DNA of 64,000 bases from NCBI RefSeq assembly GCF_900109555.1, contig NZ_FNZV01000011.1:63813-127812 (forward strand), read 5' to 3'. Below the pieces are notes generated by a model. That model did no database searches. It saw only the letters and a list, made by a program, of their open reading frames with translations, and had not been told where the DNA came from. The DNA comes from Pacificibacter marinus. Its GTDB lineage: Bacteria > Pseudomonadota > Alphaproteobacteria > Rhodobacterales > Rhodobacteraceae. Both the position numbers and the translations under genes were made by a program. Positions within the stretch are counted from its first letter, which is position 1; each line of letters starts with the position of its first letter. Below are positions 31,189-57,531 of the stretch, piece by piece.

Positions 31189-31613
31189 CCAAGACCTTTA
31201 CACTCAAACGACAGGTGGAATTCAATCATTGTGACATGGCAGGTATCGTTTTTTACCCACGCTATTTTGAAATGATATCATCTTCCATCGAACGGTTTTT
31301 TGCCGATGCCATGGAATTTAGTTGGGGTGAAATGCGCCAAACTGATGGCGGCATGGGCACCCCTATGGGCAGTATTGATGTGCGATTTCGCGCGCCGTCA
31401 CGCCTTGGCGAATGGCTTGAATTTACTGTGTTCATCAAACGGCTTGGCACCTCATCTGCGACCTTTGATTTAGCTTGCGCCAGCAATGACGAAACCCGTT
31501 TTACAGGCTCCGCAACGGTTGTCTACGCCAACACATCCACGGGCAAATCCGCGCCATGGCCCAATAGCCTACGCAGCAAAATGTCCACTTACCTTATGTC
31601 TCCGACTCCTTAA
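31185..31613 (+). CDS. Acyl-CoA thioesterase, 4-hydroxybenzoyl-CoA type, second copy
   Basis: 142-residue hot-dog thioesterase from a GTG start overlapping the SDR stop. The active-site block FNHCDMAGIVFYPRYFEM contains the catalytic Asp. It is related to, but clearly different from, the product of 27408-27824. Presence in the monooxygenase/reductase operon suggests release of CoA from a pathway intermediate or of free 2-aminobenzoate. Confidence 0.87.
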   Translation: MTKTFTLKRQVEFNHCDMAGIVFYPRYFEMISSSIERFFADAMEFSWGEMRQTDGGMGTPMGSIDVRFRAPSRLGEWLEFTVFIKRLGTSSATFDLACASNDETRFTGSATVVYANTSTGKSAPWPNSLRSKMSTYLMSPTP

Positions 31614-31628
31614 TTCGAAAGCTTGATT

Positions 31629-32042
31629 ATGACTGTTCTGACACCGCACACATTTCTACAACCCGATGGTTGGGCTCCGGCAAAAGGCTATGCAAATGGC
31701 ATGATGGCTGAGGGCAAAATGGTCTTTACTGGCGGTCTTGTTGGCTGGAATGCACAACAAGAATGGGAACATCTGGACATGGTGGGCCAGTTCCGCCAGA
31801 CACTCAAAAACATCGTGGCCGTGCTGTCTGAAGCTGGTGCCAGCCCTGAACACTTGGTGCGAATGACTTGGTATATAACTGATAAAAAAGAATATAACGA
31901 AAACTTGCGACCCTTTGGCGCAGCTTACCGTGAAGTTCTTGGGCGTCATTTTCCAGCGATGGCCGTTGTGCAAGTTGCAGGATTGATGGAAGACGCGGCA
32001 CGTATCGAAATCGAAGCCACGGCAGTTATTCCACATGAGTGA
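31629..32042 (+). CDS. Rid (YjgF/YER057c/UK114) family protein lacking the usual active-site arginine
   Basis: 137-residue Rid-fold protein. ATG 31629 is preferred to the TTG six bases earlier. In imine/enamine deaminases of the RidA type the segment before the last strand reads PAR; here it is FPAMAVVQV, so the key Arg is replaced by Met. The family assignment is good (FTGGLVGWN, VRMTWYITDKKEYN), but ordinary RidA chemistry is doubtful. Its position suggests it handles an amino or enamine intermediate of the CoA pathway, or binds one. Confidence 0.82.
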   Translation: MTVLTPHTFLQPDGWAPAKGYANGMMAEGKMVFTGGLVGWNAQQEWEHLDMVGQFRQTLKNIVAVLSEAGASPEHLVRMTWYITDKKEYNENLRPFGAAYREVLGRHFPAMAVVQVAGLMEDAARIEIEATAVIPHE

Positions 32043-32427
32043 GCCAGACCAACGTCCCTCAGAACCTGCCGTTTTGATCACCGTCGCCCCCTACGCCGAG
32101 GCGACCCCAAGCGGCGCTATTTTTGGTGGCTGGATCATGTCACAACTCGATCACGCCGCAGGGCTTGCAGGTCGTAAGATGACAGGTGGAAATGTGATCA
32201 TCGCCAGCATCAAAGAGCTGAACTTTCATGCAGCTTTGGCGGCTGGTGAAGAGTTCGTGATGCACGCAACTGTCACCCGTCATGGCAACAGTTCTTTCAA
32301 TCTGTCGCTGTCTGGTTGGGCCGAACCCGACACAGACAGCCGACGCATTATGACTGCTGATGTTTTGTTGGTCGCCATCGATTCCAAAGGTAAGCCGCGG
32401 AAATATTCAAGCCAAGTGAGGAATTGA
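32035..32427 (+). CDS. Acyl-CoA thioesterase, YciA-like hot-dog protein
   Basis: 130-residue hot-dog thioesterase of the YciA/acyl-CoA hydrolase group (PSGAIFGGWIMSQLDHAAG, then ASIKELNFHAALAAGEE). Its start overlaps the Rid gene by 8 bases. It is the third thioesterase in this 5-kb stretch, which points to strong need for CoA recycling or detoxification of stalled thioesters. Confidence 0.85.
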   Translation: MSEPDQRPSEPAVLITVAPYAEATPSGAIFGGWIMSQLDHAAGLAGRKMTGGNVIIASIKELNFHAALAAGEEFVMHATVTRHGNSSFNLSLSGWAEPDTDSRRIMTADVLLVAIDSKGKPRKYSSQVRN

Positions 32428-32503
32428 ACCTTTCTCTTTACGCCAAAGGGCTTCCACTGATATATGAAATTGTCTTTTGACCACAAGCGTTTGGAGCCTA
32501 GGT

Positions 32504-32968
32504 ATGACGACGAACGATCTGCACTATATTGAAGACGAAGCCTTGTCACGTCAACGATTGCGGCTTTGGTTGCAAATGCTCAAAGCTGTGCGCCACGTTG
32601 AAAGCGGACTGCGCGAAAAACTGCGCTCTGGATACAACACAACTTTGCCGCGCTTTGATGTTTTAGCAGCCCTATATGCCGCGCCAGAAGGCATGAAAAT
32701 GAGCGAGTTATCGCAGCATTTGGTGGTCTCAAACGGCAATGTCACTGGGGTTGTCGAACGACTGGTGGCAGACGGCTTGGCCATCCGCGAAAACATGATC
32801 AGCGATCGCCGCGCCTTTTTGGTTAAAATCACCGAAAAAGGCAACACTTTGATGGATGAGATGACAGCAGAGCATCGCGGCTGGATTGATGACATGTTTA
32901 CGGACGTGACCGAAGCTGACGCAGCACGCGGTATTTCAATCATGCTGGATGTGCGCAACAAAAGCTGA
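32504..32968 (+). CDS. MarR-family transcriptional regulator 1
   Basis: 154-residue winged-helix regulator: RFDVLAALYAAPEGMKMSELSQHLVVSNGNVTG as recognition region, then the wing with MISDRRAFLVKITEKG. ATG 32504 (GGAG about 10 bases upstream) is used, not the upstream TTG. It closes the monooxygenase/reductase operon and probably senses an aromatic acid or CoA ester. It is a candidate binder of the CTTTA-N4-TAAAG sites. Confidence 0.88.
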   Translation: MTTNDLHYIEDEALSRQRLRLWLQMLKAVRHVESGLREKLRSGYNTTLPRFDVLAALYAAPEGMKMSELSQHLVVSNGNVTGVVERLVADGLAIRENMISDRRAFLVKITEKGNTLMDEMTAEHRGWIDDMFTDVTEADAARGISIMLDVRNKS

Positions 32969-33008: not shown

Positions 33009-33818
33009 TTATAAGATGCCTGTTTCCTGCGCGACGCGGCGATAGCCCGCGCCCGCTGTGAAACCACCATCAATCACAAAGTCTTCACCTGTGATATAAG
33101 CCGACCCTTCGGAGGCCAAAAACAGCACCAATTGCGCGACTTCTTCGGCCTCGCCAGAGCGTTTCATCGGGGTCATTTCGATCATTGGCTTCAAATGGGG
33201 TGACCCACGATTGAGGTCAGTCACAATCAACCCAGGACAGATCGCATTCACCCGAATACCTTCTTGCGCATATTCCATCGCGGCAGAGCGCGTCAGGCCA
33301 CGCAGCGCCCATTTGGACGATGTATAGGCCGGGTCATAGTGACCCGAAAATCCGCTGTTCGAAGAAATATTAACGATACTTCCCCCACCAGTTTGCATCA
33401 TCATCGGCGCGCAAAGTTTGATACCGATAAAGGCCCCCGTTGCGTTGACATCCATCACCTTGCGCCACTCTTCTACGGACATGTCGCGGATAATTTTACG
33501 ATTGATAATTCCGGCATTGTTGACCAAAATATCCAACCGACCGGTCCACTCTTGCACCACATCCAAAGCTGTGGCCCATGCGGATTCTGATGTGACATCA
33601 AGGGCTTGAAAACGCACATTCAGACCAGAACCAGTTAGCTTTTCAGCCAAAGCGACACCGTCATCTTGCAGCACATCACAGATCAAAACGCTGGCCCCAG
33701 CACAGGCAAGTAGTTCTGCCTCGACTGCACCTTGGCCGCGCGCACCACCCGTGACAATTGCGGTTTTGCCAGTCAAATCCGTTAGCGCATTTTTGGCTTT
33801 TTCAAAGTCTACACTCAT
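33009..33818 (-). CDS. Short-chain dehydrogenase in the FAH-cupin operon
   Basis: 269-residue SDR. The cofactor loop is TGGARGQGA, then NNAGIIN, then ISSNSGFSGHYDPAYTSSKWAL holding the catalytic Ser/Tyr/Lys. Its start overlaps the FAH gene stop by four bases (minus strand). It is convergent with the MarR-ended operon. The substrate is unknown; an alcohol/ketone step on an indole-derived intermediate (for example dioxindole/isatin level) is possible but unproven. Confidence 0.87.
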   Translation of the reverse strand: MSVDFEKAKNALTDLTGKTAIVTGGARGQGAVEAELLACAGASVLICDVLQDDGVALAEKLTGSGLNVRFQALDVTSESAWATALDVVQEWTGRLDILVNNAGIINRKIIRDMSVEEWRKVMDVNATGAFIGIKLCAPMMMQTGGGSIVNISSNSGFSGHYDPAYTSSKWALRGLTRSAAMEYAQEGIRVNAICPGLIVTDLNRGSPHLKPMIEMTPMKRSGEAEEVAQLVLFLASEGSAYITGEDFVIDGGFTAGAGYRRVAQETGIL

Positions 33819-34657
33819 GCTTGCACCATCAATTGACGTTGCTCACCAAGACCAGATGCACCCAAAGTGACCACCTGCCCCGCACGCAAGAACGTCGGGG
33901 GTTTCATGCCCAAGCCAACACCAGGAGGCGTACCAGTGGCAATAATATCGCCAGCTTCCAAGGTCATGAATTGCGAGATGTAGTGCACAAGATGCGCCAC
34001 GCCAAAGATCATTGTTTTGGTGTTACCAGTCTGACGACGGTCGCCATCCACATCAAGCCAAAGGTCGATATTTTGAATGTCGTCAAATTCGTCTTTGGTC
34101 ACCATCCAAGGTCCAACAGGACCAAAGGTGTCATGGCTTTTGCCCTTGATCCACTGCCCGCCACGCTCTGATTGAAAACGGCGCTCAGAGACATCATTCA
34201 CCAATGCGTAACCTGCCACGTGACTCAAAGCATCCGCTTCATCAACGTATTTTGCGCGGCTGCCAATCACGATCCCCAGCTCGATTTCCCAATCTGTGCG
34301 ATCAGACCCACGTGGGATTTCGACATCATCATAAGGACCACACAAAGCTGTGGTGGCTTTGGAAAACAAGACAGGTTCTGCGGGCGGCTCTTTGCCTGTT
34401 TCGCGTGCGTGATCAGCATAATTCAGTCCCACACACAGAAACTTTCCGGGCCGTGCAATCGCAGATCCCACGCGAGGCGTGCCTTGCACAACAGGCAGGC
34501 TAGACACATCGACCTTGGCGATTTTTGCCAAGCTTTCGGGCGACAGCGCGTCCCCATTGATGTCAGGCACAACGCTGGACAAATCGCGCATATTGCCCTC
34601 AGCATCAAGAATTGCAGGGCGTTCGGCACCAACAGGCCCGTAGCGGAGAAGTTTCAT
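33815..34657 (-). CDS. Fumarylacetoacetate hydrolase (FAH) family protein
   Basis: 280-residue FAH-fold enzyme. The metal-binding blocks are LCVGLNYADHARETG, DWEIELGIVIG and KSHDTFGPVGPWMV. ATG 34657 gives the usual N-terminus MKLLRYG. The family hydrolyses or decarboxylates beta-diketo or 2-oxo acids using Mg/Mn. It sits between a cupin and an SDR gene on the minus strand. In this cluster it might cleave a side chain from an indole intermediate; that is inference. Confidence 0.88.
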   Translation of the reverse strand: MKLLRYGPVGAERPAILDAEGNMRDLSSVVPDINGDALSPESLAKIAKVDVSSLPVVQGTPRVGSAIARPGKFLCVGLNYADHARETGKEPPAEPVLFSKATTALCGPYDDVEIPRGSDRTDWEIELGIVIGSRAKYVDEADALSHVAGYALVNDVSERRFQSERGGQWIKGKSHDTFGPVGPWMVTKDEFDDIQNIDLWLDVDGDRRQTGNTKTMIFGVAHLVHYISQFMTLEAGDIIATGTPPGVGLGMKPPTFLRAGQVVTLGASGLGEQRQLMVQA

Positions 34658-34738
34658 AAATGGTCCTTTCGTGGCGCGCCGTTGACGACCCTCTGCGCAC
34701 AACACAAAGGTGTCAACAACGACGCACTGGTCTTGAGA

Positions 34739-35164
34739 TTAAGCGCGGCGATAGCCTTCAAGGGCGTCGTCAGGCACTTCTGGAAGGTTGGTGACAAGGT
34801 TGTCAGGCGTCCGACATGTCAGCCAAACTAGCTCGTCTGTCGTGCTCATGTTGACTTCAACATGCGGCATAAATGGCGGCACAAAAACAAAGTCGCCTTC
34901 GTGTAAGTCTGTGTATTCTTTATAATCTTCGCCAAAATAAATTCGACCATGGCCTTTCAACACATAGCCACCTGTTTCACATTCTTCGTGGTGATGCGGC
35001 GGTGACCGATGACCCGGCTCATTGCTCACACGACCAAACCAGATTTTTGTAGCAGGTGTGTGCTGAGGGCTTACGCCAGATTTACGAACACAATCGCCAG
35101 ACTGCGATGTGCCGTCATCAAGCTCAGACGCACGTGTGACAACTGGAACAACTTTTTCGGTCAT
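34739..35164 (-). CDS. Cupin-domain protein
   Basis: 141-residue single-domain cupin. Motif 1 SPPHHHEECETGGYVLKG and motif 2 VFVPPFMPHVEVN contain the metal-ligand His/Glu set, so a metal site is likely. It is first in the minus-strand unit with FAH and SDR, divergent from the isatin hydrolase gene. Such cupins may be small dioxygenases, isomerases or binding proteins; I cannot choose. Confidence 0.85.
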   Translation of the reverse strand: MTEKVVPVVTRASELDDGTSQSGDCVRKSGVSPQHTPATKIWFGRVSNEPGHRSPPHHHEECETGGYVLKGHGRIYFGEDYKEYTDLHEGDFVFVPPFMPHVEVNMSTTDELVWLTCRTPDNLVTNLPEVPDDALEGYRRA

Positions 35165-35477: not shown

Positions 35478-35520
35478 TAACAAAATGAAAAACCAAACAT
35501 TCCAACAGAGGACACCCCAT

Positions 35521-36315
35521 ATGAACGCTCAGGATACACTCGCAAACGTCGCCATAGGCCTGCTTGATGGCTCAGTCAAAGTTGTTGATTGCACAGCCCC
35601 CCTCGGGCCCGACACACCGCTTTTGAAACTGCCAGAAGACTTTGCAGACAACACACCCAAAGTCGAAATCCACAAGATTTCTGAGTATGGCGACCGTGGC
35701 CCTTGGTGGGCGTGGAACTGGCTCAAATTGGGTGAACACTCTGGCACACACTATGACGCGCCACACCACTGGATCACTGGCAAAGACTACCCAGACGGGT
35801 CAGTCGACACCATCGCACCCCAAAACTTTGTCGCCCCCGCCAACGTGATCGATTGCTCAAAAGAATCCGCAGCTGATGCAGATTTCTTGCTCACAGTAGA
35901 GCACGTCAAAGCATGGGAAGCAGAGCACGGCGAGATCAAAGAAGGCGAATGGGTACTGATGCGCACCGATTGGGACCAATACAACGATGACGAAGACAAG
36001 TACCTGAACGCTGACGAAAACGGCCCACACACACCTGGCCCGACCGCAGAAGTGATTCAATACTTGATGGAAGAGAAAAAGGCACTGGGCTGGGGCACAC
36101 AGTGCATCGGAACAGACGCAGGTGCGGCGGGCGGATTTGAAATTCCGTTCCCAGCACACAACCTTTTGCATAAACACAACCGCTATGGGTTGGCATCGCT
36201 GACCAACCTCAGCGCACTGCCCGCAAAAGGCGCAATCTTGATCACTGCACCGCTCAAAATCGTCAAAGGCACGGGGTCCCCGATTCGCGCCCTTGCACTT
36301 GTGCCAGCAGCATAA
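35521..36315 (+). CDS. Isatin hydrolase (cyclase/kynurenine formamidase-like, Mn-dependent)
   Basis: 264 residues. The metal motif HxGTHxDxPxH is present as H73, H77, D79 and H83 (GEHSGTHYDAPHHWITG). Sequence blocks throughout (KVEIHKISEY, DCSKESAADADFLLT, QCIGTDAGAAGGFE, KGTGSPIRALALVP) match what I recall of the characterised isatin hydrolase of Labrenzia aggregata, which opens isatin to isatinate. ATG 35521 follows AGAGGAC; an in-frame ATG 36 bases upstream is less likely. It heads the operon flavoprotein-MarR-IorA-IorB-flavoprotein. Confidence 0.85.
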   Translation: MNAQDTLANVAIGLLDGSVKVVDCTAPLGPDTPLLKLPEDFADNTPKVEIHKISEYGDRGPWWAWNWLKLGEHSGTHYDAPHHWITGKDYPDGSVDTIAPQNFVAPANVIDCSKESAADADFLLTVEHVKAWEAEHGEIKEGEWVLMRTDWDQYNDDEDKYLNADENGPHTPGPTAEVIQYLMEEKKALGWGTQCIGTDAGAAGGFEIPFPAHNLLHKHNRYGLASLTNLSALPAKGAILITAPLKIVKGTGSPIRALALVPAA

Positions 36316-36328
36316 AGTGAGCACAGCC

Positions 36329-37894
36329 ATGACCACATCAACCGAGGTTGCCATCATCGGATCAGGGATCAACGCCCTAACCGCAGGTGCCATGCTCGCA
36401 AAATCCGGCAAACGCGTCGCAGTGTTTGAACGCGAAGCCATCGCAGGCGGTTGCATGCGGTCAGAAACATTGGCCGAGGGGGTCACATATGATCCCCTTG
36501 CCACCACTTTTGTTCTTTGGGTCACAGGTGCTGCACATGGTGCTTTGGGTGCAGATCTGGCCCGCCACGGTGTTGAATTCTGCAGCACAAACACGCCAAC
36601 AGGTGTTTTGATGCCAGATGGCCGAGCACTGACATATACAACAGACCGTACAACCAACGTGGCCGCATTCAACGCGGTCCATGACGGCGACGGCACACAA
36701 TTTGCCGCCGATCTAGACGCTTTCGGTGCAGACGCCGAACTGCTGTTTGGATTGATGGGCGGTGACCCGTGGTCCAAATCTACGGCAAAATTAATGGCCA
36801 AAGAAACATGGAAACGCAAACCCCGCGGGTTGGCTTCCACCATGGGTGGCGCGCTGCAATCCATGCGCAATTGGTTGGAAACATCATTTGACAGCGATCT
36901 AAATCGCGCGCTTTGGGCCCCATGGTGTTTGCATGCGGGGCTTGGGCCAGAGTCAACGTTTTCGGGGCAGATGGGCCAAGTGATCGGGTTTGCACTAGAA
37001 GCCGCAAGTGCGCCCGTGATCAAAGGCGGCGCAGCTGAAATGGTGCGCGGCCTGATCGCCATCATCGAAGAACACGACGGCAGCGTGCGGACGTCGGCAG
37101 AGGTCGCAAAAATCACGCTAACACAAAACAAAGCAACAGGGTTGGTGCTGACATCTGGCGAAGAAGTTTCGGCCAGTACGGTGTTGGCGTCAACCACGCC
37201 AAACCAACTTTACGGCACGCTCGCCCCTACACCTGCAAAAGCCGATGATCTGCGCAAATATCAATACGGAAAAGGAAACTTCCAGCTTCACTACCTCATT
37301 GACGGTGACGTCAAATGGAACACCAATGGCTTGGAAGACGTACAACTTTTGCATCTAAGTGCCGGACTTGATGCGGTGTCGAAAGCTGGAAACGAGGCCG
37401 AACGCGGCATGTTGCCCGAGGTGCCCACCATCTGCGTCGGTCAACCTTGTGCTGCTGACCCTACTCGTGCCCCCGCTGGTAAAACCGTGCTTTGGTTGCA
37501 AATGCCCGAAGCCCCACGCGTGGTCAAAGGCGATGCAAAAGGCGAGATTGAAGTCCCCGCTGACGGTCAATGGACGGACGAACTGCGCGAAGCCTATGCA
37601 GATCGTATTGAAGCCATTTTGGCTCAACACATCGATGGTTTCAAAGACAGTGTTCTCACACGTCGCGCGATTTCACCCGCAGACTTACAAGGCTACAACA
37701 TGAACCTTGTCGGCGGTGATCCCTACGGCGGCGCGTGTTCGGTCGAGCAATTTTTCCTCTGGCGTCCGTTCAAAGACAGCGTGCGTCATGACACTGGCAT
37801 CAAGGGTCTGTACCACATCGGCGCCTCAACCCATCCCGGCCCGGGCTTGTCAGGCGGATCAGGGTTTTTGACAGCAAAAGAGTTGGGCGCATGA
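36329..37894 (+). CDS. Phytoene dehydrogenase-like FAD oxidoreductase, copy 1
   Basis: 521-residue flavoprotein of the phytoene-desaturase/amine-oxidase fold. The FAD-binding N-terminus is IIGSGINALTAGAMLAKSGKRVAVFER, with a C-terminal FAD block HIGASTHPGPGLSGGSG. It is not a carotenoid gene by context: it lies between isatin hydrolase and MarR, and a homologue lies on the other side of iorAB. It may oxidise an indole/dioxindole intermediate, or act as redox partner of the oxidoreductase. Its stop overlaps the MarR start (ATGA). Confidence 0.85.
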   Translation: MTTSTEVAIIGSGINALTAGAMLAKSGKRVAVFEREAIAGGCMRSETLAEGVTYDPLATTFVLWVTGAAHGALGADLARHGVEFCSTNTPTGVLMPDGRALTYTTDRTTNVAAFNAVHDGDGTQFAADLDAFGADAELLFGLMGGDPWSKSTAKLMAKETWKRKPRGLASTMGGALQSMRNWLETSFDSDLNRALWAPWCLHAGLGPESTFSGQMGQVIGFALEAASAPVIKGGAAEMVRGLIAIIEEHDGSVRTSAEVAKITLTQNKATGLVLTSGEEVSASTVLASTTPNQLYGTLAPTPAKADDLRKYQYGKGNFQLHYLIDGDVKWNTNGLEDVQLLHLSAGLDAVSKAGNEAERGMLPEVPTICVGQPCAADPTRAPAGKTVLWLQMPEAPRVVKGDAKGEIEVPADGQWTDELREAYADRIEAILAQHIDGFKDSVLTRRAISPADLQGYNMNLVGGDPYGGACSVEQFFLWRPFKDSVRHDTGIKGLYHIGASTHPGPGLSGGSGFLTAKELGA

Positions 37895-38337
37895 CCGATC
37901 ATCGCGAACAGCTAGAAGAATTCACCCCCTATCTGATGAACCGCATCGCAGCGCGGTACAACAAAGGTGTTGAATCCGCTCTCAAAGATGTCGGTATATC
38001 CGTGGCTCAAATGCGTGCTTTGGCCGCTTTGGCCGAAAGCGGGCCATGTTCCATTACCGATCTATCCATCCTCACGGTCATCAAACAATCAACCCTGTCA
38101 CGCACACTCGACACGATGGAAAACGCAGGCCTGATTTTGCGCACAGCGCAAGGTTCAGACAGCAGATACCGTCAAATCAGCCTCACCCAAACAGGGCGCG
38201 CCGCCTATGACGCCGCTTGGCCATCGATGCAAAATATGCGCGACACCATGCTTGCGTCCCTCAGCGAAGATGAACGCGAGAATTTCAACTCATTGCTACT
38301 GCGGATTTTTTACGACATCCGCCATCACGATTTTTAA
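37891..38337 (+). CDS. MarR-family transcriptional regulator 2
   Basis: 148-residue winged-helix protein. The recognition region is CSITDLSILTVIKQSTLSRTLDTM and the wing is GSDSRYRQISLTQTG. It is embedded in the isatin hydrolase operon between the flavoprotein and iorA, with a four-base overlap upstream. MarR proteins control auxin/indole acetate catabolic loci in other bacteria, which supports an aromatic ligand here. It is the second candidate for the shared operator motif. Confidence 0.87.
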   Translation: MTDHREQLEEFTPYLMNRIAARYNKGVESALKDVGISVAQMRALAALAESGPCSITDLSILTVIKQSTLSRTLDTMENAGLILRTAQGSDSRYRQISLTQTGRAAYDAAWPSMQNMRDTMLASLSEDERENFNSLLLRIFYDIRHHDF

Positions 38338-38348
38338 AGGAGCCTGAA

Positions 38349-40493
38349 ATGGCAGAACGTTCTTTCGCCAAAGAAGTCCAAAAGCTTAAAAAAGGAGAAG
38401 GCGAAACCTTCACCGGCGAGGGCATCTTAGCTATCACTAAGGCCCTTTTGGAAAATGGTGTCGGCTATGTTGGTGGCTATCAAGGCTCGCCAATTTCACA
38501 CCTGATGGATGTCTTGGCAGACTCCCAAGAAATTCTCACCGAACTGGGCGTCCACTTCGAAGCCTCCGCTTCAGAAGCAACCGCAACAGCAATGCTGGCC
38601 GCCTCTGTGCATTACCCAATTCGTGGTGCTGTGACCTATAAATCCGTGGTCGGCACCAACGTGGCCTCTGACGCTTTGTCGAACCTTGCCTCTGGCGGTG
38701 TAACGGGCGGCGCATTGATTATCGTCGGCGAAGACTACGGCGAAGGTTCATCCATCATGCAAGAGCGCACATATGCGTTTGCAATGAAATCACAGGTCTG
38801 GATGCTAGATCCACGCCCCAACCTGCCCTCAATCGTCAAAGCCGTGGGCGACAGTTTTGAGATGTCAGAAATCTCAAACACGCCCGTAATGCTGCAAGTT
38901 GGCATTCGCTCGTGTCACGTGCACGGCCACTTTACTGCGTCAGACAACAAACGCCCCCAGATGAATGTCTCTGAGGCTTTGGAAAACCCAAAACGCGATC
39001 TACAACGCATTGTTTTGCCCCCTGCGACATACATTCACGAAGAAGAAAAGCTGACAAAACGTCTGCCCGCTGCGCAAAAATTCATCATCGACAAACAGAT
39101 CAACGAACGCTTTGGCACGCCCTCCGGCAAGGTCGGGATCATCTTGCAAGGTGGCACATACAACACCGTCATTCGTGCGTTGAACCGTCTTGGTTTGGCC
39201 GATCTATATGGCGACACCAATGTAGATATGTTGGTGCTCAACTGCGTTTATCCTTTGGTGCCAGACCAGATTTTAGATTTCTGCGAAGGCAAAGACGCCG
39301 TTTTGATCGTCGAAGAAGGCCAACCCAATTACGTTGAACAACAAATCGCACATATGCTGTACCAGTCTGGCAAATCCGTCAAACTAGAGGGCAAAGGCAT
39401 CCTGCCAATGGGCGGTGAATACACCGGTCAAGTGATGGTCGATGGGCTTGGCGATTTCTTTTCGCAGCACGCACCAGCCATGCTTCCAGTTGCGAAAGTC
39501 ACCACCAACGAACAACCCATCTCGATCCCTGATCTGTCGAAATCTTTGCCTGCGCGCCCACCAGGCTTTTGTACGGGTTGCCCTGAACGCCCTATTTTTG
39601 CTGCAACAAAATTGGTCGAAGAAGAACTGGGCGAACACCACATCGCGTCGGATATCGGCTGTCACCTGTTTTCAATCATGCCGCCCTTTGACCTCGGCGC
39701 GACCACCATGGGCTTTGGCCTTGGGCCAGCGTCGGCATCGGCATTTCACAACGCTGACAAAAAAGGCCGCCGCTCGATCTCTTTCGTGGGCGATGGCGGC
39801 TTTTGGCACAACGGCCTAACGTCATCGGTGGGCAATGCGGTGTTCAACAAGAACGACAACGTCATTGTGATCGTCGACAACTTTTACTCTGCTGCAACAG
39901 GCGGACAAGACATCTTGTCCTCACGCGCCGACAACCCCACCAAGCAAACGCAAAACTCCATCGTGGATGCCTGCAAAGGCATGGGCGTCAAATGGATCCG
40001 CCAGATTGATCGCACCTATGATGTGACCAAAATGCGCGACACATTGAAAGAAGCGCTGACCACAGAAGCCGAAGGCCCAAAGGTCATCGTCGCCTCATCA
40101 GAATGTATGCTCAACAAACAGCGTCGTGTGAAACCGCAAATGGCAAAAGCCGCCAAAGACGGCAAACGCGTGGTGCGCCCCCGCTTTGGTGTGGACGAAG
40201 ATATTTGCACCGGAGATCACGCCTGTATGCGCCTGTCTGGCTGCCCATCTTTGTCGGTCAAAGACACGGGCGACCCCTTGCGCGATGATCCAGTGGCCGC
40301 AATCGACCAAACCTGTGTGGGCTGTGGGAACTGTGGCGAAGTGGCGGATGCGGCAGTGCTTTGCCCGTCATTCTTCCAAGCAGAAATCATCACAAACCCA
40401 AGCAATTTTGAAAAACGCCGCGCCTCGCGCACAGGCAAAATCATCGCATGGCTGCAAACGCGTCGTGACGCCAAACGCGTCGCTTTTGCATAA
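38349..40493 (+). CDS. Indolepyruvate:ferredoxin oxidoreductase-like alpha subunit (2-oxoacid oxidoreductase)
   Basis: 714 residues, matching IorA architecture: pyrimidine-binding domain (GYVGGYQGSPISHLMDVL), CoA/cluster region (GFCTGCPERP), thiamine-diphosphate domain (GDGGFWHN from residue 481, then NDNVIVIVDN), and a C-terminal ferredoxin-like part with cysteines 620 onward and C656/C659/C662/C672. Family chemistry: 2-oxoacid + CoA -> acyl-CoA + CO2, electrons to ferredoxin. Isatinate, the isatin hydrolase product, is itself an aryl 2-oxoacid, so this enzyme could yield 2-aminobenzoyl-CoA. Followed by the beta subunit after 12 bases. Confidence 0.9.
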   Translation: MAERSFAKEVQKLKKGEGETFTGEGILAITKALLENGVGYVGGYQGSPISHLMDVLADSQEILTELGVHFEASASEATATAMLAASVHYPIRGAVTYKSVVGTNVASDALSNLASGGVTGGALIIVGEDYGEGSSIMQERTYAFAMKSQVWMLDPRPNLPSIVKAVGDSFEMSEISNTPVMLQVGIRSCHVHGHFTASDNKRPQMNVSEALENPKRDLQRIVLPPATYIHEEEKLTKRLPAAQKFIIDKQINERFGTPSGKVGIILQGGTYNTVIRALNRLGLADLYGDTNVDMLVLNCVYPLVPDQILDFCEGKDAVLIVEEGQPNYVEQQIAHMLYQSGKSVKLEGKGILPMGGEYTGQVMVDGLGDFFSQHAPAMLPVAKVTTNEQPISIPDLSKSLPARPPGFCTGCPERPIFAATKLVEEELGEHHIASDIGCHLFSIMPPFDLGATTMGFGLGPASASAFHNADKKGRRSISFVGDGGFWHNGLTSSVGNAVFNKNDNVIVIVDNFYSAATGGQDILSSRADNPTKQTQNSIVDACKGMGVKWIRQIDRTYDVTKMRDTLKEALTTEAEGPKVIVASSECMLNKQRRVKPQMAKAAKDGKRVVRPRFGVDEDICTGDHACMRLSGCPSLSVKDTGDPLRDDPVAAIDQTCVGCGNCGEVADAAVLCPSFFQAEIITNPSNFEKRRASRTGKIIAWLQTRRDAKRVAFA

Positions 40494-40505
40494 GGACCAG
40501 ACCCT

Positions 40506-42056
40506 ATGAACATCCAAACCAAACCTCTCGTCGCACGCCGCTCCCCCGGTCCTGACGGCGAAAAAATCATCACGCTCGCAGCTTTGGCTGTGGGCGGTCA
40601 AGGCGGCGGCGTTTTAACAAACTGGATCGTTGCCGTCGCCGAAGCCAACGGATATCGCGCCCAATCCACCTCGGTTGCAGGGGTCGCACAACGCACAGGC
40701 GCCACGATTTACTACATCGAAATGTGCCGCGACACAGGCCGCATGCCGGTGTTTTCCTTATCTCCGTCCATTGGCGATGTAGATATTTTGATGGCCTCCG
40801 AATTGATGGAAGGTGGCCGTGCGATCATGCGCGGGTTCGTTACACCGGGCCGCACGACACTGATCACATCAACCCACCGCATCGCGGCCGTGTCAGAAAA
40901 AATCGTCCCCGGTGACGGTCGCTTCGATGAAACAGATGTGTACGAAGCCATGGGCATTGCCGCTGATCAATTGGTGGCCTTTGACATGGAAACGGTTGCC
41001 AAAAAAGCGGGCTCAGTGATTTCATCCTCGCTTTTGGGCGCATTGGCTGGCTCTGGCGCACTGCCATTTGAACGCAGCAGTTTCGAAGATATCATTCGTG
41101 CATCTGGGCGCGGTGTGGATGCATCTTTGCGGGCTTTTGGGGATGCTTATGACATCGCAAAAGGCGACAAACCTGCCCCCCAACCACAAACCGCTGCCGA
41201 CCTGCCCGTACCCGTTTTGAATGTGCCAAAGCATCTCAAGGCCTCATGGTCAGCACTTGAAAAACGCATCATTGCTCTGCCGTTGGAAGTGCAAGAAATG
41301 ACAGGGCTTGGGATCAAAAAAGTCGTTGATTATCAAGACGTCACCTACGGGCACCAATATCTCGACATGGTGGAAAAATCTGTAACCTTGGATACAGCCC
41401 CCTATGAAATGAGCGCCAATGCGGCCAAATATTGCGCCCGCGCATTGTGTTACGATGACCTGTTGCGGGTGGCCGATATCAAAACCCGTGCCTCTCGTTT
41501 TGCCCGTGTAAAAGACGAAGTTGTGGTGAAAGACGATCAAGTTTTACACCTGACAGAATATTTTCACCCCCGCTACGAAGAATTCACCACCACCCTCCCC
41601 CGCGCTCTTGGCCAGTTTATGCAAAAGCGCAAAGGCGTCGAAGCGTTTTACACCAAGCACTTTGACAAAGGGCGGCGCATTCGTACCGACAGTCTTTCGG
41701 GGTATTTGTCGTTGTGGCTGGTGTCCTCTTTGCGCCCTATTCGACGTAAACTTTTGCGCCATGACAGCGAAATGACCCATGCCAATGCGTGGTTTGACAC
41801 TGCGATGGATGTCGCTAAAACCGACACCGCGCTCGCGTCTGAAGTGCTGGCCAACTACCGCTTGATCAAAGGCTATTCCGACACGCACGTGCGCGGCATG
41901 TCTAAATTTGCGCGCATTATGCAATCGATTGATCTGCTCAAAGGTCGCCCAGATGCAGCCGACTGGATGCGCCGTTTGCGCACGGCCGCACTTGACGATG
42001 TCGAAGGCGATAAATTGGACGGCGCGCTAGAAACCATCAAAAGCTTTGCGGGGTAA
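40506..42056 (+). CDS. Indolepyruvate oxidoreductase-like beta subunit with C-terminal extension
   Basis: 516 residues. The first 200 are the IorB-type gamma domain (ALAVGGQGGGVLTNWIVAVA, then TSVAGVAQRTGATIYYIEM), which is normally the whole subunit of about 200 residues. The additional 300 residues (from about 240) are the extension found in the longer bacterial IorB-like proteins; its role is unknown to me and it carries no obvious cluster cysteines. Co-transcribed with the alpha subunit, it forms the holoenzyme acting on the 2-oxoacid. Confidence 0.87.
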   Translation: MNIQTKPLVARRSPGPDGEKIITLAALAVGGQGGGVLTNWIVAVAEANGYRAQSTSVAGVAQRTGATIYYIEMCRDTGRMPVFSLSPSIGDVDILMASELMEGGRAIMRGFVTPGRTTLITSTHRIAAVSEKIVPGDGRFDETDVYEAMGIAADQLVAFDMETVAKKAGSVISSSLLGALAGSGALPFERSSFEDIIRASGRGVDASLRAFGDAYDIAKGDKPAPQPQTAADLPVPVLNVPKHLKASWSALEKRIIALPLEVQEMTGLGIKKVVDYQDVTYGHQYLDMVEKSVTLDTAPYEMSANAAKYCARALCYDDLLRVADIKTRASRFARVKDEVVVKDDQVLHLTEYFHPRYEEFTTTLPRALGQFMQKRKGVEAFYTKHFDKGRRIRTDSLSGYLSLWLVSSLRPIRRKLLRHDSEMTHANAWFDTAMDVAKTDTALASEVLANYRLIKGYSDTHVRGMSKFARIMQSIDLLKGRPDAADWMRRLRTAALDDVEGDKLDGALETIKSFAG

Positions 42057-42060
42057 AATC

Positions 42061-43608
42061 ATGAGTGCACCTATTGTCATCATCGGCGCTGGGATCAACG
42101 GATTGGTTGCCGCCGCGGACCTCGCAGCCCGTGGCAAAAAGGTGCACATCTTTGAACGCGGCCCCACGCCCGGTGGTGCCGTGCGCACCGAAGAATTGAC
42201 CATTGCAGGGTTTCGTCACGACGTTGCTGCGATGAATCTGTCCATGTTTGCGGGGTCTGCATTCATGGCCAAGCATGGTGCAGAACTGGCAAAACATGGC
42301 GTCGAATTTGTGCCGATCACGCGCCCTTTCGCGCAGGCGATGGAGCCGGGTGATCATCTGGGCGTGACCACGGATTTGGACGAAACCCTATCCACGTTTG
42401 CATCAGAAACTGACAAAGCAACATGGCGCGCACTTATGGACGATTTTCCAACCCGCGCAGGCGTGGTTGGCGGATTGCTTGGCACGCCTATGCGTCGCTG
42501 GCCCTTGGTCAAATTCCTTTGGAAAAACTGGCGCGCTTTGGGCACATCCAAAAGCATTGAAATTGCGCAGTTTTTAATGACCTCGCCCCGCGATTGGTTG
42601 GACGCAACATTCGAAGATCCACGTTTGCGCACAGCGCTGTCCACTTGGGGCATGCATCTTGATTTTGCCCCTGACATCGCAGGCGGTGCTATATTTCCGT
42701 ATCTTGAGGCCATGGGCGGTCAAGCCATGGGCATGGTGATCGGCAAAGGCGGCGCAGACACCGTCACCCGCGCTTTGGTTTCGATGATTAAAAGCAACGG
42801 CGGGACCATTACCTGCAATGCTGAAGTTGATGAAATTTTGCACCAAAATGGCACAGCCACCGGCGTGCGCGTTGGCAAAAAAGAAATTCAAGCTTCAACC
42901 ATATTAGCAGGCCTTGCGCCAAAACACCTGATGCGTCTTATTGGGGGCGCATCGGGTCACGTTGGATTTGATCGCGGTTTGAACACGTTTAAACATGCCC
43001 CCGGCACAATGATGATCCATTTGGCTTTGGATGCCCCTGTGCCGTGGAAAGCCACAGCCCTTAAAGATTTTGCCTATGTCCACATTGGACGCACAATTGA
43101 CACGGCAGCACGCACATATACCCAAGCGATTGCAGGGCTTTTGCCAGACACTCCGTTGCTTGTTGTTGGTCAACCTACGGTCTTTGACCCAAGTCGTGCC
43201 CCCGAGGGGAAACACACACTTTGGGTCCAAGTGCGCATGGTTCCCGCCGACATCAAGGGCGATTCGACGGGTCAAATCATCGATAAAACATGGGAAGATG
43301 CCAAAGAACCCATGGCTGAGCGTGTGTTTGATTTGATCGAAGAACAGGCTCCAGGGTTTCGTCAAACGATCCTTGCGCAGACCCTTGTGTCCCCCCTTGA
43401 TCTAGAATCAGGTAACCCAAATCTTGTGGGCGGGGATCAAATTTGCGGATCTCATCACCTGACTCAAAACTTTATATTCCGCCCTGTGCGCGGTTTTGCC
43501 GATGGGCACACCCCTCTTGACGGGTTGCACATGATCGGGGCCGCATGTTGGCCCGGTGCGGGAACGGGCGCTGGATCTGGTTTTTTTGCGTCGCAATTGA
43601 TCAAATAA
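42061..43608 (+). CDS. Phytoene dehydrogenase-like FAD oxidoreductase, copy 2
   Basis: 515-residue flavoprotein homologous to copy 1 at 36329. N-terminal FAD site IIGAGINGLVAAADLAARGKKVHIFERG; late block MIGAACWPGAGTGAGSG. ATG 42061 is 4 bases after the iorB stop. Both copies share internal segments such as FGQPTVFDPSRAPEGKHTLW-like PSRAPEGKHTLWVQ against PTRAPAGKTVLWLQ. Two paralogues in one operon suggest a heteromer or two successive oxidations. Function unproven. Confidence 0.85.
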   Translation: MSAPIVIIGAGINGLVAAADLAARGKKVHIFERGPTPGGAVRTEELTIAGFRHDVAAMNLSMFAGSAFMAKHGAELAKHGVEFVPITRPFAQAMEPGDHLGVTTDLDETLSTFASETDKATWRALMDDFPTRAGVVGGLLGTPMRRWPLVKFLWKNWRALGTSKSIEIAQFLMTSPRDWLDATFEDPRLRTALSTWGMHLDFAPDIAGGAIFPYLEAMGGQAMGMVIGKGGADTVTRALVSMIKSNGGTITCNAEVDEILHQNGTATGVRVGKKEIQASTILAGLAPKHLMRLIGGASGHVGFDRGLNTFKHAPGTMMIHLALDAPVPWKATALKDFAYVHIGRTIDTAARTYTQAIAGLLPDTPLLVVGQPTVFDPSRAPEGKHTLWVQVRMVPADIKGDSTGQIIDKTWEDAKEPMAERVFDLIEEQAPGFRQTILAQTLVSPLDLESGNPNLVGGDQICGSHHLTQNFIFRPVRGFADGHTPLDGLHMIGAACWPGAGTGAGSGFFASQLIK

Positions 43609-43664: not shown

Positions 43665-43734
43665 ATATGACTGCACACTCATCCTAAAATCAGAGCTCAT
43701 AAATTGAGCCTTCATCATCAACGGGAGTTTGAAC

Positions 43735-45273
43735 ATGACAGCAAAGACACAGCTCACTCGGCGCGGATTTATTGGCACATCCGCGGCCCTGACAGCATTG
43801 ATAGCAACAGGCGCACCAGTGCTTGCACAGAGCACAGATAGCCTCACAATCGCTTATAATATTCCAGTGCAAAGCTGGGACCCAACCACAGGGCCCGCTG
43901 CGGTGAACCCTGCATTGCAATCAGTTTATCTCGCGGTGTTTGACCGTTACGTGAACCAAGCCCCCGACCTGTCATTTGGCCCCGGGCTTTTGTTGGATTG
44001 GGGGTTTAACGACGATAAAACCAAAATCACCATGACCGTTCGCGAAGGTGTTAAATGGCACAATGGCGATGATTTCACGCCAGAAGATGTGGTTTGGTCC
44101 CTCACGCGCGCGGCAAACCCTGAAACGGGCAATCCGATGCAATTCGTCTGGTCTAAAATCGGGAATTTCACCGTAGACGGCAACGTCATCACAGCCGATG
44201 TGATTGATTTCGAACCTGCGCTGTTCAAATGGATGGCATTTTTGACCGCCTTTATTTTGCCCAAAAACTACTACGAACAGGTCGGATCAGAAGGCTTTGA
44301 AAAAGCGCCAATCGGCACAGGCCCCTACATGGTCGACGCGTTCGAACAAGGCGCATATGTGCGCCTAAAAGCCTTTGACGGCTACTGGGGCGACGCGCCG
44401 GATTTCAAATCTGTCACTATCAAATTTGTCACAGATGCGGCATCTCGTGTGGCTGAAATTGAATCTGGCAACGCCGATATCACCAGCAACATTCCCTACG
44501 AAGAATACGACCGTTTGATCGCCAAAGATGGCCTGTCTGGCAAAGCTGTTCCGGTCACAGACATCGGCATGATCTTTCTCAATGATATCGACGTGATGAT
44601 GGACAAAAACGTGCGTCTGGCCGCGCATCACGCCATCGATAAACAGCTGATCATTGATCGCCTCTTGCGTGGATACGGCGTGCCACTTTCTACATTGGAG
44701 GCCCCCGGATATGCGGCGTATGACGACAGCATCGTTGTCGACTACGACCCTGAATTGTCTAAAGAATTGCTGGCAGCGTCCGGCTATTCCACCGACAATC
44801 CTGTGACCTTTACCATCCAAACCACACGCGGGTTCAAACCTAAAGATTACGAGATGATCCAAGCCATTGTTGGCATGTGGCGCAAGGTCGGCATCGAGGC
44901 GGAAATCGAAGTCTATGAGATCGCAAAACACTACGAATTGCGCGCCACAGACACACTGGCACCAGCCGCGTTTTACAACTGGGGCAACTCAATCGGCGAT
45001 CCTTCGACCTCAACAGGGTTTTCCATGTTTGGCCCCTCGCCTCACGCGGTTTGGGATACACCTGACTTGATCGAAAAAATCGGCCCGCTCTTTGTGGAAC
45101 CCGACGAAGAAAAACGGATCGCAGACTATAAAGCCGTGTCACGCTACATCGCTGAAGAAGGCTACGTGATCCCGCTTTTGCAATACGTGATGCCGGTTGT
45201 GTTCAACTCTGCCATCGATGTTGAAACATACAGCTCAGGCGATCTGCTGCCACAAGCTGCCACAAAAGCCTAA
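43735..45273 (+). CDS. ABC transporter substrate-binding protein, family 5, Tat-exported
   Basis: 512-residue periplasmic binding protein of the peptide/nickel type. The N-terminus has a twin-arginine signal: TRRGFIG (R9, R10), a hydrophobic stretch, then VLAQ. Mature family blocks: SWDPTTGPAAVNPAL, REGVKWHNGDDFTPEDVVWSL, APIGTGPYMV. ATG 43735 is used, with GGGAG upstream; a TTG two codons earlier is unlikely. It probably captures the indole or aromatic substrate of the island, given its adjacency and shared operator. Peptide import remains possible. Confidence 0.9.
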   Translation: MTAKTQLTRRGFIGTSAALTALIATGAPVLAQSTDSLTIAYNIPVQSWDPTTGPAAVNPALQSVYLAVFDRYVNQAPDLSFGPGLLLDWGFNDDKTKITMTVREGVKWHNGDDFTPEDVVWSLTRAANPETGNPMQFVWSKIGNFTVDGNVITADVIDFEPALFKWMAFLTAFILPKNYYEQVGSEGFEKAPIGTGPYMVDAFEQGAYVRLKAFDGYWGDAPDFKSVTIKFVTDAASRVAEIESGNADITSNIPYEEYDRLIAKDGLSGKAVPVTDIGMIFLNDIDVMMDKNVRLAAHHAIDKQLIIDRLLRGYGVPLSTLEAPGYAAYDDSIVVDYDPELSKELLAASGYSTDNPVTFTIQTTRGFKPKDYEMIQAIVGMWRKVGIEAEIEVYEIAKHYELRATDTLAPAAFYNWGNSIGDPSTSTGFSMFGPSPHAVWDTPDLIEKIGPLFVEPDEEKRIADYKAVSRYIAEEGYVIPLLQYVMPVVFNSAIDVETYSSGDLLPQAATKA

Positions 45274-45293
45274 CCACAGGCACCAACATTCCC

Positions 45294-45320
45294 TTGGGTC
45301 GCAACATGTTTGCGGCCCAA
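45294..45320 (+). repeat. Hairpin between binding-protein and permease genes
   Basis: TTGGGTCGCA / TGCGGCCCAA: ten-base arms with one mismatch and a 7-base loop, followed by AATCTAATCT. Likely partial terminator or mRNA stabiliser favouring binding-protein synthesis. Confidence 0.6.
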
Positions 45321-45342
45321 AATCTAATCTGGCGAGGCGTAC

Positions 45343-46350
45343 ATGCTTGCGAAAACCATTCTTATTCGACTGCTCAGCACCGCAGTCACGCTGTTTGGCG
45401 TGGCTGTTGTTGTGTTCACACTGATCCGCGTTGCGCCCGGAAACCCGATTTCTATGATGCTGCCCCCTGGGGCCACCCAAGAAGATATTGCCAATCTCAA
45501 TGCCCTTTACGGCTTTGATAAAAGCCTGCCGGAACAGTTCGTGATTTGGCTTGGCGGCGTGCTGCATGGTGACTTTGGCACTTCAATCACCCTGCGCAGA
45601 CCTGTGTCTGAACTGGTGCTGGGGCGCTTGCCTGCCACTTTGGAACTGTCTGTTATGGCGCTTACAATTGCAGTGGCGCTTGGCGGCTTTGTGGCTGTCA
45701 TTGGTGCCCGCAAACGCGGCACTGCCACCGAAGTTGGGCTTGACCTGACAAGCGGTGCAGTTTTGTCCATTCCTGATTTTCTATGGGGTCTGGTCTTTGT
45801 ACTATTGTTCGGTGTGCTTTGGCCGATCTTGTCCATATCAGGGCGCATTGATCCGCGCATCGACTTTGATTTCACCACAAATTTCTATCTGATCGAGGGC
45901 GTTTTGCGTGGCCGATTTGATGTAGTCGGATCGACCTTGTCGCACATGTTAATGCCCGCCATGTCTTTGGCTTTGCCTTTGGCTGCGATGATCGCACAAC
46001 TGTTGAAACAGAACCTCAAAGAAGTGCTGGTGCAAGATTACACAACCCTTGCCCGCGTGCGGGGATTTAGCGAAACTTCTGTGATTTTACGCGAAGCCCT
46101 GCGCAATGCAGCCCTGCCAACCATCGCATTGATTGGCGTGCAATTCACCTTTTTGATCGGCGGCACAGTGATCGTCGAACGCCTGTTCGCCTATGAAGGC
46201 TTGGGCAATATGGCCATCGATGCCGTGATCAACCGCGACCTGCCGCTGGTGCAAGGCATCGTGCTTTTGTTTGCCGCTTTGTTCACCGTGATCAACTTGT
46301 TGGTCGATCTTTCTTACACCTTTTTGAACCCGAGGTTGCGCAATGGCTGA
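45343..46350 (+). CDS. Peptide/nickel-type ABC permease, DppB-like
   Basis: 335-residue inner-membrane permease. N-terminal helix LLSTAVTLFGVAVVVFTLIRVAPGNP, then several further helices. The permease loop near residue 235 (VLVQDYTTLARVRGF) carries the DppB-type ATPase-docking motif, and GTVIVERLFAYEGLGNM is the usual late block. The last 8 bases overlap the next permease gene. Confidence 0.92.
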   Translation: MLAKTILIRLLSTAVTLFGVAVVVFTLIRVAPGNPISMMLPPGATQEDIANLNALYGFDKSLPEQFVIWLGGVLHGDFGTSITLRRPVSELVLGRLPATLELSVMALTIAVALGGFVAVIGARKRGTATEVGLDLTSGAVLSIPDFLWGLVFVLLFGVLWPILSISGRIDPRIDFDFTTNFYLIEGVLRGRFDVVGSTLSHMLMPAMSLALPLAAMIAQLLKQNLKEVLVQDYTTLARVRGFSETSVILREALRNAALPTIALIGVQFTFLIGGTVIVERLFAYEGLGNMAIDAVINRDLPLVQGIVLLFAALFTVINLLVDLSYTFLNPRLRNG

Positions 46351-48950: not shown

Positions 48951-49080
48951 GCGCGCAACATGGGTTTTCCAGCCGTCTCAACTCGGAATTTGCGCCCTGT
49001 TTGCATCAAACAAGGATCGACAATCCCTACAATAGATGGGACTGTACCCGCCTTGCCCATTGCACCAGTTAGGCCACAGG

Positions 49081-49860: not shown

Positions 49861-49917
49861 ATCATGTGTTGCAAAACGATTGCTTGTAACTTTCCATCCA
49901 CAGCTTAACCTAATTGG

Positions 49918-51345: not shown

Positions 51346-51350
51346 ACGCC

Positions 51351-52292: not shown

Positions 52293-52304
52293 GCGTTTGA
52301 AAAC

Positions 52305-53102: not shown

Positions 53103-53150
53103 ATATATCAAACCTGATTTTCTGTCTTTTATCCAAAACTGGACCACAAA

Positions 53151-54761: not shown

Positions 54762-54770
54762 AAAATTTCC

Positions 54771-55667: not shown

Positions 55668-55675
55668 ATCGATTC

Positions 55676-57517: not shown

Positions 57518-57531
57518 CTCTAAATCTCCTG

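Follow-up and report, generated by a model that had tools for sequence, protein, structure and literature searches.

Isatin is a breakdown product of indole and of the plant hormone auxin, and an isatinate step was reportedly described in Bradyrhizobium japonicum in 1995. The iad loci of Variovorax, Bradyrhizobium and Achromobacter convert indole-3-acetic acid (IAA) via isatin and isatinate to anthranilate. They encode IadA, IadB, a MarR regulator and IadI, a cyclase-family protein that resembles isatin hydrolase and is annotated as kynurenine formamidase (PMC9613470, PMC12633357). Conway et al. named the IadA and IadB families and used them as markers exclusive to iad-like loci; the passages concerned state no catalytic role for them (PMC9613470). 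In B. japonicum the corresponding genes bll3411 and bll3410 were induced 30.7- and 7.6-fold with IAA (PMC3788728); their other names, iotA and iorB, have been equated with IadA and IadB (PMC9613470). The genes for each step of the IAA pathway were said to have remained unidentified in a 2025 preprint (PMC12633357). Here we analysed a 64,000-nucleotide stretch of the Pacificibacter marinus genome (contig NZ_FNZV01000011.1, positions 63,813 to 127,812; referred to as the window) that encodes an IadA-IadB pair (IadAB). A MarR homologue stands beside the iadA and iadB homologues, the combination by which an iad locus is recognised, and the window has a counterpart of IadI. Unlike the iad loci, the genome of the window has no Rieske alpha subunit and with it no iadCDE set, and the route would end in a monooxygenase/reductase of the 2-aminobenzoyl-CoA or salicylyl-CoA family (ACMR) instead of in free anthranilate.

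Phenylglyoxylate:NAD+ oxidoreductase of denitrifying Aromatoleum/Azoarcus converts an aryl-glyoxylate and CoA to the aroyl-CoA and CO2. This enzyme is NAD-linked and has five subunits. The reaction proposed here for IadAB is the 2-amino analogue of its chemistry, with two subunits in place of the five-subunit architecture. The indolepyruvate:ferredoxin oxidoreductase (IOR) IorAB is like IadAB in having an alpha subunit with thiamine diphosphate (ThDP) and iron-sulphur (Fe-S) centres and a beta subunit of the pyruvate oxidoreductase (POR) gamma type. IadAB differs from IorAB in that it stays under the equivalog cut-offs, has an extra DUF6537 domain in IadB and is linked to isatin and aminobenzoyl-CoA genes. 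The aerobic 2-aminobenzoate pathway, where a 2-aminobenzoate-CoA ligase acts before ACMR, shares ACMR, a short-chain dehydrogenase/reductase (SDR) and RidA with the window; the relatives also have enoyl-CoA hydratase (ECH) and acyl-CoA dehydrogenase (ACAD). Unlike in that pathway, the thioester would be formed from isatinate, and no gene of the ligase family was found in the genome of the window.

Based on gene association, we propose that IadAB is probably an isatinate (2-aminophenylglyoxylate):ferredoxin oxidoreductase that feeds ACMR. The isatin hydrolase would open isatin to isatinate, which IadA would decarboxylate with its ThDP. The enzyme-bound aminobenzoyl unit would then be oxidised via the Fe-S centres and transferred to CoA with the POR gamma domain of IadB, yielding 2-aminobenzoyl-CoA, CO2 and reduced ferredoxin. 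ACMR would hydroxylate and reduce the ring, and the SDR, RidA and thioesterase or fumarylacetoacetate hydrolase (FAH)-type enzymes may finish the breakdown. Since IadAB would form the thioester from isatinate, ATP and free anthranilate would both be bypassed; one ATP-dependent step would be dropped and one low-potential electron pair gained. If this is true, two genes that are hallmarks of auxin degradation in bacteria gain a function, and free anthranilate is no obligatory intermediate where auxin and indole are broken down aerobically in soils and in the sea. In the open-licence literature, outside which most subscription papers fall, we found neither such a proposal for IadAB nor any published catalytic role for iadA or iadB.

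The operon runs on the + strand in the order isatin hydrolase, FAD enzyme 1, MarR, IadA, IadB and FAD enzyme 2 (Table 1). When the ATG codons at 36329 and 42061 are taken as starts, the genes are separated by 13, 11, 12 and 4 bases and overlap once by 4 bases. The isatin hydrolase matched isatin hydrolase B (PDB 4J0N) in phmmer with E 7.4e-128 and was identical in 186 of 264 aligned columns (70%); 5NNA was matched with E 2.1e-84. The start of 4J0N aligns with an internal ATG at 35521 and not with the start of the open reading frame (ORF) at 35485. Segments such as EHSGTH and DAPHHWITGKDY are found in both the window protein and isatin hydrolase B (4J0N/4M8D), and the sequence comparison revealed no feature that separates the two. 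We infer that the window protein converts isatin to isatinate, as is known for this 70%-identical relative. An earlier sequence-only reading of the window, which also took 35521 as its first coordinate, had claimed that an isatin hydrolase-like gene and an IOR-like pair share one operon, and the common strand, the short junctions and the identity to 4J0N bear this out.

The same reading had placed a 2-aminobenzoyl-CoA monooxygenase/reductase 5 kb away. Its family and distance were confirmed: the end of the ACMR gene is 7.9 kb from IadA and 5.0 kb from the ORF of the isatin hydrolase, and the protein matched NF006101 with 1189.6 bits (cut-off 1078) over residues 1-760, covering both the flavin monooxygenase and the old-yellow-enzyme domain. 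No other protein of the genome scored above this cut-off. The substrate part of the claim is less firm, as NF006101 is named salicylyl-CoA 5-hydroxylase/oxidoreductase. The context of RidA, isatin hydrolase and IadAB favours aminobenzoyl-CoA over salicylyl-CoA as the substrate of ACMR. In particular, the adjoining gene for a RidA-type deaminase suggests, together with the isatin genes, that the thioester intermediate is amino-substituted. Among 26 IadA loci that hold ACMR, an SDR homologue was present in 17 and RidA in 15; in several of the loci without RidA, ACMR was near the end of the stretch examined. The SDR beside ACMR likely acts after it.

The IadA protein is IOR-like, with 306.1 bits to TIGR03336 (below the cut-off of 650.9), and IadB reached 46.5 bits with TIGR03334 (below 205.8). 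The subfamily model PRK08312 was passed by IadB with 644.6 bits (cut-off 348). The ThDP domain of IadA was recognised by PF02775 (60.7 bits, cut-off 21.9) and the POR gamma domain of IadB by PF01558 (60.4 bits, cut-off 27.4). The Fer4_10 match of IadA stayed at 19.8 bits, below 25.5, and the first cluster motif is atypical; the cysteines C620, C626, C632, C656, C659, C662 and C672 were invariant across 33 aligned sequences, as were GDGGFWHN and CxGCPERP. The extended motif GDGGFWHNG was present in all 81 scanned IadA loci. CxGCPERP was also considered as a marker of isatinate specificity and rejected, since the motif is common to IadA and nearer paralogues. A predicted model of IadB (mean confidence, pLDDT, 82.5) was matched by Foldseek to PorC and to the gamma chains of 2-oxoacid:ferredoxin oxidoreductases for pyruvate and 2-oxoglutarate. 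For its DUF6537 domain (residues about 263-473, predicted to be mostly helical) there was no confident fold match in the PDB, and PDB sequence searches with IadA and IadB gave no match at E 0.001. Within the operon no NAD-linked subunit was recognised, only the two-subunit gene pair. IadB was retained in 79 of the 80 IadA loci described below. On a Variovorax plasmid (L040:14001-16349), an IadA homologue is flanked by two IS1071 transposase genes, with no adjoining IadB annotated or detected.

Co-occurrence of the genes was counted in 295 genomes (294 genera by tally) of the Roseobacteraceae, the family of the source genome (3.87 Mb, 99.96% complete); related genomes in this sample are not independent, although it is spread over genera. 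IadA was called at a minimum of 60% identity, which left weaker matches and the long IORs out of the count; partial matches in G044 and G021, both at a contig end, were included. The thresholds were E 1e-150 for ACMR and E 1e-40 for isatin hydrolase. IadA was present in 63 genomes, ACMR in 106 and both in 59. Thus, 59 of 63 genomes with IadA had ACMR versus 47 of 232 without it (Fisher p ~1e-27). Isatin hydrolase occurred in 59 genomes, every one of them IadA-positive. IadA and isatin hydrolase were at most 20 kb apart at 50 of 65 IadA places, and IadA and ACMR in 14 of the 63 genomes. In a class-level sample of 255 genomes, ACMR was present in 7 of 8 genomes with IadA; of the three class-level IadA loci examined, with at least 61% identity, L191 has ACMR, and L190 and L192 are without it.

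Linkage was then analysed in the best 80 of 591 IadA-related loci, taken from named genomes and partly overlapping the 295-genome sample. In this sample and on the IadA tree, the closest named relatives of the window were Pacificibacter and other Roseobacteraceae. The thresholds were 59% identity for isatin hydrolase and 45% for ACMR, and a cyclase that best matched the Shinella reference was not scored as isatin hydrolase. A distance of at most 10 kb from IadA was seen for isatin hydrolase in 56 of the 80 loci and for ACMR in 22; 67 loci have nearly full flanks, and in these the numbers were 49 and 21. The ACMR linkage changed its state at least 10 times on the IadA tree, with gain and loss indistinguishable and some flanks short. 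The gene orders varied. In the window type, ACMR is upstream of IadA on the same strand; in L079 and L093 it is divergent from IadA, at a distance of about 281 or 338 bases, in L071 and L121 it is downstream, and in Azospirillum (L042) and in L191 it is inside a full iad cluster. L157 has MarR-IadA-IadB-thioesterase-ACMR-SDR-ECH-ACAD-RidA on one strand, an apparent operon, and its genome (G251) has a ligase on another contig and, at the threshold applied, no isatin hydrolase. In Caballeronia (L041), IadAB is followed by a thioesterase, ACMR and ring-cleavage genes, and no ligase was found within 30 kb. L191 (G494) combines in 19.5 kb the genes iadF-iadG-SDR-iadD-iadE-isatin hydrolase-IadA-IadB with RidA-thioesterase-ACAD-ECH-SDR-ACMR, and a benzoate-type ligase was not matched in its genome at E 1e-70.

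For a control, we took 10 loci of a 53%-identical IadA paralogue and 10 long IOR loci, all from Roseobacteraceae and 10-18 kb in length (4 of the 20 shorter than 18 kb). They were counted first by best label with a filter of 50% coverage and E 1e-10, and then in a looser look down to E 0.001. No ACMR was found in the 20 loci at E 0.001. Isatin hydrolase-like genes were absent from 18, and the other two, both long IOR loci, had distant cyclase-family genes only (30% identity in L149, 25% in L146). These controls bear on the explanation that IadAB is an ordinary aryl-pyruvate (indolepyruvate or phenylpyruvate) oxidoreductase of tryptophan catabolism, which stands beside the isatin genes because of a shared indole metabolism. 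The best named relatives of IadAB are indeed indolepyruvate oxidoreductases, and no second IadA homologue was found in the source genome at E 0.001, so the aryl-pyruvate function would otherwise be vacant. However, both subunits miss the IOR equivalog cut-offs, no aminotransferase was recognised among the annotated operon genes, isatin hydrolase is confined to IadA genomes and the long IOR loci have no ACMR. We regard this explanation as quite unlikely.

In four loci (L038, L039, L041 and L043) a thioesterase gene directly follows IadB, which suggests that the product of IadAB is a thioester. Pyruvate:ferredoxin oxidoreductases are known for non-oxidative decarboxylation as a side reaction, and IadAB might in the same way decarboxylate isatinate to 2-aminobenzaldehyde, or use another aryl 2-oxoacid, with an indirect link to ACMR. 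Benzoylformate decarboxylase is among the many ThDP enzymes that Foldseek matched to the weak IadA model, and L157 joins IadAB to ACMR in a genome where isatin hydrolase was not detected. A plain decarboxylase, however, needs neither the invariant C-terminal cysteines of IadA nor the IadB subunit that nearly all loci have kept, and the thioesterase genes speak for a thioester. We consider this explanation, in either form, very improbable.

The sequence-only reading had also stated that neither an anthranilate-CoA ligase nor a Rieske anthranilate dioxygenase is in the cluster. This was found to be correct and could be extended to the whole genome, in which PF00848, the Rieske dioxygenase alpha subunit, had 0 matches. 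AMP-binding enzymes had 9 matches: three near-identical acetate-CoA ligase copies, a malonyl-CoA synthase, a propionate-CoA ligase-like protein, two enzymes of uncertain substrate (L049, PRK07529; L050, PRK12582) and two short odd members. The benzoate-CoA ligase model was absent among the listed best matches of these genes (seven scanned, one representing the three near-identical copies). The relatives' ligase, encoded in many of them some kilobases from ACMR, belongs to the benzoate-CoA ligase family (TIGR02262 365.5 bits, just below the cut-off of 375.25). None of the source genome's AMP-binding genes was more than 29% identical to it, and no match was seen in the genome at E 1e-70 when all 12 candidates were scored. 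The acetate-CoA ligase copies (L044, L045 and L046 on contigs C22, C30 and C37) are located at or near contig ends and could be real repeats or an assembly effect.

A search for genomes in which the three families co-occur without a CoA ligase, as suggested by the sequence-only reading, showed that the families do co-occur and that the ligase was mostly present. We had expected that many genomes with IadA and ACMR would lack it, and this failed: in the family sample only 5 of 59 did (p 0.22). When ACMR genomes of at least 90% completeness were taken from family and class together, the ligase was lacking in 5 of 56 with IadA versus 0 of 75 without (p 0.013), which we count as weak support. Two of these five are congeners. 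ACMR without a match to a benzoate-CoA-type ligase was seen in the window genome, its congener G260, G102 and G494, the latter two being fragmented. "Ligase-free" describes only this genome and a few more.

Several observations weigh against an isatinate-converting, CoA-dependent IadAB. The ligase was present in 54 of the 59 genomes with IadA and ACMR and in 46 of 47 ACMR genomes without IadA, so the activation of anthranilate may serve ACMR there. The test for a lacking ligase was set up after this genome had been seen, and the 90% completeness cut was chosen after the first ligase result; it removed the ligase-lacking genomes G119 (with IadA), G212 and G485 (without) and G318 (from a group with 48-59% IadA identity). 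Without the cut the ligase was lacking in 6 of 64 versus 3 of 83 genomes (p 0.18), and the family sample by itself, at 90% or more, gave 4 of 52 versus 0 of 43 (p 0.12). One of the five ligase-lacking genomes, G138, has a ligase-like match of 37% identity. Four IadA genomes had no ACMR, four had no isatin hydrolase, and in 58 of the 80 loci ACMR was not within 10 kb. At the class level, the group with 48-59% identical IadA-like proteins had ACMR in 20 of 27 genomes versus 17 of 220 other genomes, so the co-occurrence may partly reflect aromatic generalists. This group was therefore rejected as a negative control and is not clean outside the Roseobacteraceae; 2 of its 17 examined loci (L173, L174) hold IadAB and ACMR together, and the group may include more proteins with this function, or else aromatic generalists. 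A crude motif scan showed no ferredoxin gene in the window. At a mean pLDDT of 66.9 the AlphaFold model of IadA is weak, and Foldseek matched it to generic ThDP enzymes with a root-mean-square deviation of about 20 Å, so we dropped the model as evidence on the substrate. Finally, a nine-gene Variovorax segment, iadC-K2, restored anthranilate in a locus deletion and was called the complete pathway in the 2025 preprint (PMC12633357). By gene order the segment appears to leave out iadAB, which would mean that IadAB is not needed for making anthranilate.

A further explanation is that isatinate reaches free anthranilate along a different path, such as decarboxylation to 2-aminobenzaldehyde and oxidation, that an unrecognised ligase feeds ACMR and that IadAB does something else. 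In Variovorax, C8H7NO3 and C7H7NO built up strongly only in the iadC-K2 overexpressors, and the authors regard them as intermediates toward anthranilate (PMC12633357). C8H7NO3 is the formula assigned to isatinic acid (PMC8383072), and C7H7NO fits 2-aminobenzaldehyde. In our reading the two compounds thus agree with such a step, the ligase is common in the relatives, and the source genome itself has L049 and L050 as AMP-binding candidates. On the other hand, if the overexpressors are without iadAB, a build-up of isatinate is just what the loss of an isatinate-consuming enzyme should cause. The window genome, G260, G102 and G494 have ACMR and no recognised ligase of this type, and the apparent operon of L157 joins IadAB to ACMR with no ligase between them. 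We consider the free-anthranilate explanation unlikely, and retain IadAB as the probable isatinate:ferredoxin oxidoreductase. The sequence-only reading had drawn this connection, and three tests that it could have failed came out in its favour: the co-occurrence of the genes, the physical linkage of IadAB with ACMR in different gene orders, and the genome-wide lack of a benzoate-type ligase and a Rieske alpha subunit. The point is relevant for the engineering of auxin-degrading root bacteria, for which the transferred segment iadC-K2 appears to come without iadAB.

More tentatively, and with somewhat less than even confidence, IadAB may be the general isatin exit enzyme of aerobic auxin and indole catabolism. 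The anthranilate that has been reported would then be a leak, by decarboxylation or thioester hydrolysis, and two lower routes would follow, one by ACMR and one by a cupin-FAH-nitrilase-racemase set from 5-hydroxyanthranilate to fumarate, with isatin formed by the FAD enzyme pair in place of the Rieske oxygenase. For the formation of isatin in this genome, where the Rieske iadD is absent, the two FAD enzymes and the adjacent ATP-binding cassette (ABC) importer are the candidates. Individual genes were mapped in 91 IadA loci. FAD enzymes 1 and 2 occurred together in 44 of them, all 44 with isatin hydrolase and none with iadD in the mapped stretch; iadD was present in 6 of the 91. A solute-binding protein of at least 50% identity accompanied both FAD genes in 41 of the 44 loci. 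Given this distribution, the FAD pair may stand in for the Rieske oxygenase, perhaps acting on a different indole compound that is imported.

Genes for a two-domain cupin and an FAH-family protein adjoin IadAB in 8 of the 91 mapped loci (L038, L039, L041, L043, L122, L127, L128 and L130), with a nitrilase-family gene in 6 and an Asp/Glu racemase-type gene in 4 of these. The set looks like a pathway that would lead from 5-hydroxyanthranilate via maleamylpyruvate, maleamate and maleate to fumarate. A StyA-like styrene/indole monooxygenase gene was observed in the IadAB loci L034 (3196-4918), L056, L084, L089 and L161, in L034 together with a flavin reductase, which suggests an entry route from indole to isatin.

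Table 1. Features of the iadAB region in the window (positions of the window; ORF, open reading frame)
Feature	Position	Strand	Basis
ACMR (2-aminobenzoyl-CoA or salicylyl-CoA monooxygenase/reductase family)	28163..30448	+	NF006101
SDR dehydrogenase beside ACMR	30373..31188	+	
4HBT thioesterase	31185..31613	+	PF13279
RidA-type enamine/imine deaminase	31623..32042	+	PF01042
YciA-type acyl-CoA thioesterase	32035..32427	+	
MarR regulator of the ACMR set	32477..32968	+	
Divergent set: SDR (33009-33818), FAH-family (33815-34705), cupin (34739-35164)	33009..35164	-	
Isatin hydrolase	35521..36315 (ORF from 35485)	+	PF04199; phmmer 4J0N
FAD-dependent oxidoreductase 1, CrtI/CrtO-like	36329..37894 (ORF from 36293)	+	family matches
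MarR regulator, IadR-like	37891..38337	+	PF01047; best PDB matches 3cjn, 7kym
IadA, IOR-type catalytic subunit (ThDP domain and C-terminal Fe-S region)	38349..40493	+	TIGR03336 306.1 bits, PF02775
IadB, POR gamma domain and C-terminal DUF6537	40506..42056	+	PRK08312 644.6 bits, PF01558, PF20169
FAD-dependent oxidoreductase 2, CrtO-like	42061..43608 (ORF from 42046)	+	family matches
ABC importer: family-5 solute-binding protein, two permeases, two ATPases	43729..48950	+	

Upstream of the operon, ACMR is grouped with the SDR, thioesterase, RidA and YciA genes and a second MarR gene. The divergent SDR, FAH-family and cupin genes lie between this set and the isatin hydrolase operon and were retained beside the cluster in L034, L053, L054, L055, L057, L059 and L082. 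One of the best PDB matches of the IadR-like regulator, 7kym, has been named as a template for a B. japonicum MarR protein (PMC11630574). The five-gene ABC importer starts 120 bases beyond the operon. Straight after it, at 49036-53885 on the + strand, follows a cluster of transglutaminase, circularly permuted ATP-grasp, Alpha-E, transglutaminase and proteasome-like genes. The - strand genes at 53955-59463 encode a KduI/IolB-family protein, a xylose-isomerase-like TIM barrel, a ThDP enzyme and a PfkB-DUF2090 protein and are likely for myo-inositol catabolism.

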